Below, one piece after another: positions 17,852 to 21,062 of a DNA stretch of 64,000 nt (within the stretch, counting starts at the first letter, position 1; every line of letters starts with the position of its first letter). The notes under the pieces were generated by a model. That model did no database searches. It saw nothing but the letters and a program-made list of their open reading frames with translations, and had not been told where the DNA came from. The position numbers were made by a program, and so were the translations under genes. Source of the DNA: Rhizobium sp. FKL33 (GTDB lineage Bacteria; Pseudomonadota; Alphaproteobacteria; Rhizobiales; Rhizobiaceae); NCBI RefSeq assembly GCF_005222915.1, contig NZ_STFX01000024.1, forward strand, positions 164,590-228,589. Direction: 5' to 3'.

Positions 17852-18931
17852 ATGAAGCTCGAACGCAGAATATCCGTCATTGCCAGTCTGATCCTCGGCG
17901 CCACATTGGCGATCGGCGGCTGGATGCTCTATTCCGACGGGCGCGCGGCGCTTTCCGACAGCGAGAAGAAGGAAATTGAGGCGACGAGCCTCGTGCTGAC
18001 CACCGCCATGAGCCAGGCGGAAAACCTGACCGTCAGCCATTCGGAATTGATCGCCCAGAACCCTGATGTGGTGGCGCTTATAAAAGCCGGCGACCGACCG
18101 GCGCTGCTTGAGAAGATGAAGCCGGTGCTGGCCAGCCTGAAGCTGGAAGCCGGCATGGATGTGCTGCATTTCCAGACCGCCGACATCAAATCCTTTCTGC
18201 GCGTATGGGCTCCCGAGGATTTCGGCCAGGATCTCTCCAAGATCCGACCGATGGTCTTGGCCGCCAATCGCAGCCGCAAGCCGCAAAAGGGGCTGGAAAT
18301 CGGCCTGAAGGGACTCAGCCTTCGCGCCGTTTCCGCCGCAATGGACGGCGATCGGGTGATCGGCACGGTGGAAGTCGGCGTCAGCCTGAAGATGCTGATG
18401 GAAGCGTCGAAATCCTCGACAGGCGCTGATTTCGCCATTTTCCTCGATCCGCAATACATCCCGACCGCGAAAGGCGGTTTCGGCGAGCGCGGGGAAAAGC
18501 TTCAGCCCGACGCTTCCACCGATAGCGCGCTGTTCGATGGGCTGCAGCAGGGTGGATTGATCAAGCTGTCGCGCGGCCCGGAACTGACCATCACCAAGCG
18601 GGACGCCGCGACCATCGGCGTCATGACGAGGCCGTTGCTCGATTATTCCGGCAAGGTGATCGGCGCGATGATCGTCGCCCGCGATTTCTCGACAGAAGAA
18701 GGCGCTTTCCGCGCCACATTGGTGACTGTGATCGTGGTGGCGCTGTCGGGTCTGATGATCGCCTTTGGCGTGATCATGGCGACGCTCCGGGCCTTCGTGT
18801 TCCGCCCTCTCGAAGAACTGGCGGATGATCTGCAGAGCGGCCGCATCGGCGCGCCCACCACGGCGCTGTCCGCCTATCTCAAGCTGCGCGACGGCGCCGG
18901 CCGGGCGCTCCGCAACAGCGGAGACGCCTGA
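17852..18931 (+). CDS. Double-Cache membrane sensor protein without an output domain
   Basis: Protein of 359 residues: TM1 about 9-27, a periplasmic domain about 30-280, TM2 about 288-312, then only some 45 cytoplasmic residues. The periplasmic part has the pattern of double-Cache domains found in chemoreceptors and kinases: FLRVWAPEDFGQDLSK, GLEIGLKGLSLRAVSA, GDRVIGTVEVGVSL, and a second Cache lobe ending GKVIGAMIVARDFS. After TM2 come F-R-P-L-E-E-L-A-D-D-L, like the first HAMP helix, and then the protein stops. No kinase, cyclase or methyl-accepting domain follows. Its stop overlaps the start of the ion-channel gene by one base (TGATG), so the two are translationally coupled. It may be an accessory ligand-sensing subunit of that channel; that is inference. 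Confidence 0.88.
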   Translation: MKLERRISVIASLILGATLAIGGWMLYSDGRAALSDSEKKEIEATSLVLTTAMSQAENLTVSHSELIAQNPDVVALIKAGDRPALLEKMKPVLASLKLEAGMDVLHFQTADIKSFLRVWAPEDFGQDLSKIRPMVLAANRSRKPQKGLEIGLKGLSLRAVSAAMDGDRVIGTVEVGVSLKMLMEASKSSTGADFAIFLDPQYIPTAKGGFGERGEKLQPDASTDSALFDGLQQGGLIKLSRGPELTITKRDAATIGVMTRPLLDYSGKVIGAMIVARDFSTEEGAFRATLVTVIVVALSGLMIAFGVIMATLRAFVFRPLEELADDLQSGRIGAPTTALSAYLKLRDGAGRALRNSGDA

Positions 18932-19992
18932 TGGCCCGGCTCGTCAGGCTCCTCGCGTTCATTCTGTTGGTTGTCGCGCTGGCGCCCGAGGCTTCCGCCG
19001 CCGCTCCGCCGCCATCCCTGCCCGGACGGGTGCATCTGCCGATCGAGACCCATCTTTCGGTCCGGCTGCTCAACATCACCCGGCTGGAAGAAACCAAAGG
19101 CGAGATTTCAGCGCGGGTGGAATACACCCAAGGTTGGAAAGACCCGAACCAGGCCTTCGATCCGCTCGCGGCCGGCGTCTATCGCCATGACTATTTCGGC
19201 GAGGAAGCCGAGAGCAAAATCGCCGCCATCTGGACGCCCGACGTCACGATCGCCAATCAGATCGGCGAGCCGCGCTCGCGCTCGGTGGCGCTGTCGATTT
19301 CCGCAGATGGGACGATTTCCCTGATCCGGCAGCTGGATGCGGATTTCCGCATTTCCGTCGATCTCGCCGCCTTCCCCTTCGACCGGCAGAACCTGGACTT
19401 CGTTTTCACCGCGCCGCGCTACTCGGCGAGCGACGTGATCTTCGTGGTCAATGATCGCGACCGCGAAGTCTCCGCCATATCCGACCAGATCTCGATCTCG
19501 GACTGGCGGCCGGAGCGGCTGTCCTTCGCGCTCACGCAATTCTATGGCTGGAACGCCAAGCCTTTCGTGCGCGCCACCGTGACGGCGACCGTCAGTCGCG
19601 AATGGCCGCGCTATCTGCTGCGCATCTTCATCCCGTTTGCGGCGGTGGTGTCGGTGTCGCTTTTCATTCTCTGGGCGCCGGAGAAGGTCAAGGTCGATCA
19701 CGCCGGCATTACCTATTCGGCGCTGCTGGCGCTCGCGGCTTTGTCCTTCACCTTCGAATCGAGCTTTCCGGGATCGATGTCGGTCAATTCGCCGATCGCC
19801 TTCATGATCTCGCTCGGCTATTTCTATCTGGTGCTGACGCTGCTCGTGCATCTCGGCCTGCAGCATGCGGAGTTCCCCGCCGTGCGCCGCAACATCTATC
19901 TGATCGAGGAGATCCATCGCAGCGTGCGCTTCACTCTGCCGGCGATCTTCACGCTGATCTGCATCTGCTCGGTCGTGCGCTCGCTGTCATGA
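18931..19992 (+). CDS. Prokaryotic pentameric ligand-gated ion channel (Cys-loop/pro-loop superfamily)
   Basis: Protein of 353 residues related to GLIC and ELIC. Signal peptide to about residue 24. The beta-sandwich ligand domain shows W101-T-P-D-V-T-I-A-N (loop A) and the pro-loop F148-P-F-D-R-Q-N-L. Transmembrane helices: M1 about 228-248, M2 about 257-279, M3 about 287-311, M4 about 331-350. Like other bacterial members it lacks the disulfide of animal Cys-loop receptors. By ungapped eye alignment to GLIC, M2 has Asp at about -1', Ser at 6', Leu at 9' and Glu at 19', which would suit a cation pore. Five subunits would surround the pore in the inner membrane, with the ligand domain in the periplasm. 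It is coupled to the upstream Cache gene. Ligand unknown. Confidence 0.93.
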   Translation: MARLVRLLAFILLVVALAPEASAAAPPPSLPGRVHLPIETHLSVRLLNITRLEETKGEISARVEYTQGWKDPNQAFDPLAAGVYRHDYFGEEAESKIAAIWTPDVTIANQIGEPRSRSVALSISADGTISLIRQLDADFRISVDLAAFPFDRQNLDFVFTAPRYSASDVIFVVNDRDREVSAISDQISISDWRPERLSFALTQFYGWNAKPFVRATVTATVSREWPRYLLRIFIPFAAVVSVSLFILWAPEKVKVDHAGITYSALLALAALSFTFESSFPGSMSVNSPIAFMISLGYFYLVLTLLVHLGLQHAEFPAVRRNIYLIEEIHRSVRFTLPAIFTLICICSVVRSLS

Positions 19993-20066: not shown

Positions 20067-21062
20067 ATGGAGCTTCCCGTCTCCGCCATTCCCGGTTTCG
20101 TCTGGGCGACGCGTTTCGAACCGGAGAGCGGCTCGAGCCTGCGACTGCCGCCGGAAACCGATCTCGACGCGTTATTGTCGCAACAGGGTTTTCTCTGGCT
20201 GCATCTGGGCCTGTCGGACGCGCGGGTGCCGCATCTCCTCGAACGCATCCCGGACCTGCCGCCGGAAGCCGTGCAGGCGCTGACCAGCCGCGACGCGCAT
20301 GCGACCCTGTCGGTGTCGCTGGACATCGTCTGCGGCACGATCATCGACTTGCAACGCGGCTTCGACGAAATGACCTCGGAGATCGGCTGGCTGCATTTTG
20401 CCATCACCGACCGGATGATCATCACTACGCGGCTGCATCCCTTGCGCAGCATCGACCGGGCGCGGCAGGCGCTCGAGAAAAACAGCGCGCGCGTTTCAGG
20501 CCCGATGGATGTGTTCTCGACCCTGGTGATCGAATTCCAGCGCACGGTGATGGCGATGGCGCAGGAGATCAACGACGAACTCAACCGCATCGAGGATTTC
20601 GTCTATGAAAACGCCGAGAGGGACGAGCGCCACCGGCTGGCCCCTGCCCGGCGCTCGATCGTGAAACTCTATCGCCACCTGCGCACCGAACTGGCGCTGC
20701 TCCGCCGCGCCGCCGCATCCGACGACGACGAGGCGCCGGCGGGCTTTCAGGAAATCGCCCAGAAGCTCACCGAACGGATCGAGGTGGTGGAGCGGGACGT
20801 CTTTTCGCTGCAGGAACGGGCGCGGCTTCTGCATGAAGACATCGATTCCCGGGCGCAGGCCGAGACCAACCGCCATCTCTATATCCTCTCGCTCCTGACC
20901 GCCTTCCTGATGCCGCCGACGCTGGTCACGGGGTTTTTCGGCATGAACACCGAAAACCTGCCCTTCGCCCATACCGACGGCGGCACCTTCTTCGCGGGCG
21001 TGCTGATCACGCTGTCGATCGGCGCCGCCTGGATGCTTCTGAAGCGCGCGGGAATCCTGTGA
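20067..21062 (+). CDS. CorA/ZntB-family divalent cation transporter
   Basis: Inner-membrane transporter of 331 residues. The long N-terminal cytoplasmic part ends in an extended helix; TM1 is about 271-291 and carries the family signature G292-M-N, followed by T-E-N-L-P-F; TM2 is about 306-326. The loop after GMN (TENLPF) resembles ZntB, a Zn transporter, more than Mg-type CorA with its acidic MPEL loop. I chose ATG 20067 with GAAGGA upstream; a TTG at 20025 is less likely. It lies 74 bases after the ion-channel gene, perhaps in the same transcript. Confidence 0.92.
   Translation: MELPVSAIPGFVWATRFEPESGSSLRLPPETDLDALLSQQGFLWLHLGLSDARVPHLLERIPDLPPEAVQALTSRDAHATLSVSLDIVCGTIIDLQRGFDEMTSEIGWLHFAITDRMIITTRLHPLRSIDRARQALEKNSARVSGPMDVFSTLVIEFQRTVMAMAQEINDELNRIEDFVYENAERDERHRLAPARRSIVKLYRHLRTELALLRRAAASDDDEAPAGFQEIAQKLTERIEVVERDVFSLQERARLLHEDIDSRAQAETNRHLYILSLLTAFLMPPTLVTGFFGMNTENLPFAHTDGGTFFAGVLITLSIGAAWMLLKRAGIL

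Follow-up and report, generated by a model that had tools for sequence, protein, structure and literature searches.

The role and stimuli of bacterial pentameric ligand-gated ion channels (pLGICs) are largely unknown, though these proteins serve as models of nerve receptors. In the available part of Tasneem et al. 2004 (PMC549065), a predicted operon of Rhodopseudomonas is described that joins an ART-LGIC channel to a stand-alone Cache gene; MCP-N/Cache and PBP-I fusions and PBP-II operons are also given, and chemotaxis receptors are proposed. A similar pair, in which a stand-alone Cache gene and a channel gene form a predicted operon, is found in Rhizobium sp. FKL33. It lies in a stretch of 64,000 nucleotides, termed here the window (assembly GCF_005222915.1, contig NZ_STFX01000024.1, positions 164,590 to 228,589). 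On comparative sequence evidence, the Cache protein and the channel very likely constitute one functional unit.

The Rhodopseudomonas operon is a single case, presented in the available text of Tasneem et al. (PMC549065) without a clade, residues or a phylogeny of the pairing; the pairing analysed here is obligate, defines a clade and comprises 60 loci. Among the open-access papers listed in the literature searches, only Tasneem et al. was found to bear on the pairing, and no experiment on it was found; papers outside open access may contain more. The main text of Jaiteh et al. 2016 (PMC4795631) has no occurrence of the words cache, operon, periplasmic, fused or neighbor. A preliminary description of this DNA had regarded the exact pair as not known to be characterised. 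This holds for experiments in the literature searched, but an operon of a Rhodopseudomonas LGIC with a stand-alone Cache gene was already in print in 2004, as the available text of that report has it (PMC549065). The arrangement has thus been noted once before, and what is new is the obligate, clade-defining pairing, a set of testable residues and a lead to the ligand.

Other described systems share single aspects of the pair. GLIC, the proton-gated channel of Gloeobacter, has the same subunit fold, the acidic β1-β2 residue, the Pro-loop PFD and the pre-M1 arginine, and is 20-22% identical (Foldseek), but the GW at loop C and the insertion in loop F seen in the paired channels are absent from it. 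DeCLIC is similar in being a bacterial pLGIC tuned by an accessory domain in the periplasm. The available portions of the reports show, however, that this domain is fused N-terminally within one chain and is a jelly-roll rather than a Cache domain (PMC9897478, PMC12664993). The 2025 DeCLIC paper, in its available part, terms DeCLIC the only pLGIC with a partially characterised N-terminal domain (PMC9897478, PMC12664993). The alpha2-delta protein of animal voltage-gated calcium channels is likewise a Cache-containing regulatory channel subunit, according to the available text of PMC549065; the channel family is a different one, and the likeness carries no claim of whole-protein homology. Chemoreceptors of the dCache_3 type have the sensor domain and conserved residues in common with the channel partners, but carry HAMP and MCP signalling domains, of which the partners have none.

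The gene pair and its conserved adjacency

Two open reading frames on the + strand make up the pair, and the TGA stop codon of the first overlaps the ATG of the second by one base (TGATG). Genes are treated throughout as open reading frames rather than annotations. The features are as follows.

17852..18931, + strand: Cache protein, an output-less double-Cache and proposed accessory sensor subunit (359 amino acids; open reading frame, dCache_3 match, model)
17870..17926, + strand: Cache span 1, amino acids 7-25 (hydropathy; helix 2-68 in the model)
17960..18685, + strand: periplasmic dCache_3 domain, amino acids 37-278 (Pfam; distal module at about amino acids 50-185 CitA-like)
18719..18775, + strand: Cache span 2, amino acids 290-308 (hydropathy), followed by a 51-residue tail with no output domain
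18920..18923, + strand: GGAG, Shine-Dalgarno-like, within the Cache gene (sequence; 8-11 bases before the channel start)
18931..19992, + strand: pLGIC subunit (353 amino acids; Pfam, GLIC relatives, model, Foldseek)
19039..19563, + strand: extracellular ligand-binding domain, amino acids 37-211 (PF02931)
19453..19473, + strand: loop F segment, amino acids 175-181, with the clade-typical D177 and S181 (alignment; short helix 175-180 in the model)
19546..19554, + strand: loop C tip, G206-W207-N208 (alignment; hairpin 192-205/211-223 in the model)
19699..19764, + strand: pore helix M2, amino acids 257-278 (model; alignment with GLIC)

The first frame matches Pfam dCache_3 (PF14827) with an E-value of 5.8e-23 over positions 3-234 of 239. 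Hydropathy gives hydrophobic spans at about residues 7-25 and 290-308, the model has a predicted local distance difference test score (pLDDT) of 91.1, and a Pfam scan found no output domain. Open reading frame, hydropathy and Pfam agree with the two-span double-Cache protein lacking an output domain that the preliminary description had proposed, with the domain now refined to dCache_3, a type that the nearest relatives other than the partners have in chemoreceptors.

The second frame matches Neur_chan_LBD (PF02931; E 1.4e-17, 64.3 bits against a cut-off of 26). Its solved sequence relatives are headed by GLIC chains (best E 9e-17, residues 24-343). The model (pLDDT 86.5) finds a γ-aminobutyric acid (GABA) receptor and GLIC in Foldseek with E-values of 5.3e-23 and 4.7e-22 over 320-342 columns, and places four helices after the beta-sandwich, at 225-248, 257-278, 288-312 and 322-352. 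By sequence and predicted fold it is a pLGIC (Pro-loop receptor) subunit, and the GLIC-type channel gene sharing one base with the Cache gene, as first described, is borne out. Equal production of the two proteins, which had been deduced from the coupling, does not follow from overlap alone.

Among 397 genomes belonging to the order, the channel had matches in 18 and the Cache protein in 64, with at most five Cache candidates scored per genome. A Cache match lies just upstream of all ten channels of at least 40% identity, and of one more at 24% (genome G167). Among the Cache matches found, ten are in open frames shorter than 500 amino acids; nine of these adjoin a channel, and a contig end truncates the tenth. 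Named genomes were scanned with the channel alignment only, so that the choice of loci was independent of Cache. Of the 53 loci obtained, 52 have a match to the Cache profile immediately upstream of the channel and in the same orientation; the remaining locus, L103, begins 168 bases away from the end of its contig. In total, 60 of 60 testable pLGICs of the clade have a same-strand Cache gene directly upstream, and the pairing is no coincidence. This total comprises the 52 named-genome loci, the window, L112, L118 and L128, and L005, L006, L008 and L010; L056, L058, L075 and L095 duplicate L003, L004, L007 and L009, and each locus was counted once. Absence of conserved adjacency in relatives had been named beforehand as a point that would speak against a coupled pair, and the search for it found the opposite.

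Start codons were assigned by rule (ATG first, otherwise GTG or TTG). The channel starts between -3 and +5 bases from the Cache stop in 58 of the 60 loci (55/56 and 3/4), and by the same rule the genes overlap by four bases in 37 of 56 and by one base in 11 of 56. The two departures are L008, with no start codon within -45 to +10 of the Cache stop, and L053, with none in frame from -3 to +6. L053 is the Rhizobium sp. G21 locus, where the channel has an apparent frameshift in the signal-peptide region (L053:4869-5010).

The paired taxa include Rhizobium, Shinella, Hoeflea, Bosea, Bradyrhizobium, Rhodopseudomonas, Rhodoplanes, Reyranella, Chelatococcus, Plastoroseomonas, one Acidovorax and G427, from another class. 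Three Rhodopseudomonas loci (L071, L074, L078) fall within the paired clade, and we infer from the genus that the operon described in the available text of Tasneem et al. is one of them. The nearest named loci to that of the window are in Rhizobium sp. G21 (channel 96-97% identical) and SG_E_25_P2 (88%). In the source genome, one sequence matches the pLGIC family, and no plasmid match to the channel protein was found. One genome (G065) carries two diverged Cache-channel pairs, L005 and L128, with channels 48% and 40% identical to that of the window. In another paired channel (L118:3970-5337, G167) an extra proline-/alanine-rich stretch of about 100 residues follows the signal peptide.

When neighbouring genes of 54 loci were clustered, the channel was present in 54 and the Cache gene in 51, the remainder being one untestable locus and two where the gene caller missed a Cache gene that the profile scan found. 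No third gene is conserved beside the pair; the next commonest neighbour cluster is in 10 of the 54. Outside the clade, none of 18 more distant proteobacterial pLGIC loci has a match to this Cache profile within about 4 kb on each side, or less at contig ends (429 bases before the channel in L115). These loci were drawn from samples of 397, 398 and 385 genomes, the third searched with the clade's own profile at E 1e-6.

Joint history and residues of the two proteins

Trees were quick maximum-likelihood trees with the Shimodaira-Hasegawa approximate likelihood ratio test (SH-aLRT) as the sole support measure; L117 (a 185-amino-acid piece), L005, L006, L008 and L010 were left out. One branch, with a support of 98, separates the paired channels from the others in the tree of 75, and the paired and unpaired labels change once, against 16.2 times in shuffles. 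GLIC was labelled "none" in this tree without a neighbourhood check, and long-branch warnings concern branches that include the one at the base of the paired clade and one next to the base. Trees of 56 Cache proteins and of their 56 channels have 36 of 53 splits in common (random mean 0.3, maximum 3), with no conflict among splits supported at 95 or above and a distance correlation of 0.777 (permutation maximum 0.315). A joint history of the Cache and channel genes is read from these sequence trees. Acidovorax is a betaproteobacterium, yet its pair groups with Alphaproteobacteria in the Cache tree and the channel tree alike, which fits either joint transfer or a contaminant contig.

All 53 channel-partner Cache proteins match dCache_3. 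No signalling or output family, MCPsignal included, is among the 14 families matched by the 53 at E 0.01; stray matches are HAMP in one (E 0.0064) and GAF in four (E 7e-4 or worse). After the second span there are 7-13 residues in 29 of 56 partners and 51-66 in 27, the window having 51. The L102 protein has three hydrophobic stretches instead of two. Twenty non-partner dCache_3 relatives were fetched and ten scanned: nine are chemoreceptors with MCPsignal and one has the Cache match alone. Residues R82, R117, D127, R132, N139, E149, R158 and E174 are kept in 53-56 of 56 partners and in 18-20 of 20 non-partners, and, judging by the fold, these residues would line the Cache pocket. E65, M134, Q145, K187, T223 and F228 are more frequent in partners than in non-partners. 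The ratio of nonsynonymous to synonymous substitution rates (dN/dS) is 0.07-0.24 for Cache and 0.07-0.17 for the channel in seven pairwise comparisons. As the residues conserved in chemoreceptors are kept and purifying selection acts on the gene, as it does on that of the channel, the Cache protein is not decayed.

With regard to the ligand, the distal module (about amino acids 50-185) is structurally nearest to the citrate sensor CitA; the whole protein has no significant sequence match to any solved structure. R117 and R158 align with arginines of Escherichia coli DpiB in a low-probability hhalign alignment, and the DcuS alignment missed that part. In sensors of the CitA/DcuS type, such arginines bind the ligand.

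On the channel side, P149, F150 and D151 of the Pro-loop and the pre-M1 R223 are present in 57 of 57 clade rows of the alignment and 18 of 18 outside; of the coupling residues, E54 is found in 56 of 57 clade rows (D in the other) and D151 and R223 in all. Other positions are typical of the clade. The loop C tip has G206 and W207 in 57 of 57 rows, with W in 0 of 18 outside. In loop F, D177 is present in 56 of 57 (E in one) and S181 in 57 of 57; outside the clade the D177 position is gapped in 14 of 18 and S stands at the S181 position in 4 of 18. The classical agonist site, on the outer side of the receptor, is bordered by loops C and F, so these residues may belong either to a specialised ligand site or to a place where the partner docks. 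An aspartate or glutamate immediately precedes M2 in 49 of the 57 clade rows, and E276 is kept in 55 of them; by the usual selectivity rule these suggest a cation pore, and the channel is probably cation-selective.

Role of the Cache protein

On balance, the sequence data favour the view that the output-less dCache_3 protein is an obligate, membrane-anchored accessory subunit, one that senses a chemical and gates or modulates the channel in trans. The outer Cache module would bind a small organic anion, the best lead being a di- or tricarboxylate. The protein would dock at the outer surface of the channel, close to loops C and F, or lie along the channel membrane helices, and ligand binding would shift the open probability of the probably cation-selective pore. 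An outside chemical would in this way be converted to an ion current, which could feed motility or ion balance. The narrower proposal that pLGICs of the clade work solely as two-protein carboxylate-gated cation channels, with Cache docking at loops C and F in trans, is put forward tentatively from the same sequence features and may well be wrong.

Several points weigh against an accessory gating subunit or its proposed ligand. The hhalign profile comparisons with E. coli DcuS and DpiB are weak (probabilities 13.0 and 5.5), and a CitA-like fold alone does not establish the ligand. The partners are not one clade in the Cache tree, where there are two label changes and weak deep branches; this tree may fit a single or a multiple origin of the partner Cache proteins. 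Mirror trees are likewise to be expected if the genes are simply inherited together. The loop C and F residues may serve the channel's own ligand site rather than docking, and the channel may respond to an agonist of its own, for example protons. Double-Cache domains often dimerise, a mismatch with a pentamer.

The obligate pairing fits equally well a Cache protein that serves the channel without gating it, either concentrating or handing over a ligand or helping the channel to assemble or remain stable. Nevertheless, a chaperone would not need a complete sensor of two modules that is under purifying selection and has the residues conserved in chemoreceptors, and such a helper role seems rather unlikely. 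It is improbable that the two genes are in a common operon for the same stimulus while the Cache protein signals via another membrane partner, for example a chemoreceptor or kinase. The Cache relatives are indeed chemoreceptors (nine of the ten scanned), and CheW-domain matches are found in 11 of 11 pair-bearing G-numbered genomes and flagellin in 10 of 11. However, about half of the partners (29 of 56) have merely 7-13 residues past span 2, the pair lacks a conserved third gene, and, of 121 genomes sampled from the order, 87 have a CheA domain, a base rate so high that the link to chemotaxis and motility is weak. That the Cache gene is a decayed chemoreceptor beside the channel by chance, a possibility raised in the preliminary description and suggested by some tails that by eye resemble the start of HAMP (the single match above), has a negligible probability and is refuted by the 60/60 pairing, the Cache dN/dS, the kept residues and the absence of signalling families among the 53 partners.

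If the Cache protein does gate the channel, a family whose members have mainly been studied as homopentamers working on their own would have an accessory subunit that binds the ligand, and the pair would illustrate how a sensor is re-used by swapping its output for an ion channel. It would also be a bacterial counterpart to the auxiliary subunits with Cache domains in animal channels. An obligate partner whose sensor domain can be recognised offers a handle on these channels: a candidate ligand class, a protein for co-expression and residues to mutate.

Neighbouring genes and channel loci outside the clade

A CorA-like metal transporter gene (PF01544, E 4.4e-52) is found at window positions 20067-21062 on the same strand, 74 bases after the channel, its start taken as the first ATG. 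Such a gene is near the pair in 3 of 53 relatives, downstream in L052 and L053 and upstream in L055.

Two loci outside the clade, L126:2582-6444 (G316) and L127:2644-6493 (G149), also listed as L018 and L019, have a divergent pLGIC with a PDC-type sensor just downstream. The C-terminal half of this sensor has no Pfam match. A pyridoxal-phosphate-dependent decarboxylase gene (PF00282, E 9e-53, scanned in L126) ends 10 bases before the pLGIC, and genes upstream resemble parts of an ATP-binding cassette transporter by eye. An enzyme that makes an amine may be combined here with a channel and a sensor in one run. At L116:1-5013 (G405), genes for a phosphonate-binding-like periplasmic protein (PF12974, E 2e-65) and for a histidine kinase with a PAS domain come after the pLGIC. 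With L126, L127 and L116, the arrangement of a channel beside a sensor recurs with other sensor families. At L137:3365-5985 (G1089) a divergent pLGIC gene shares 4 bases with the gene of a protein that combines ATP-grasp and cyclic-nucleotide-binding domains.
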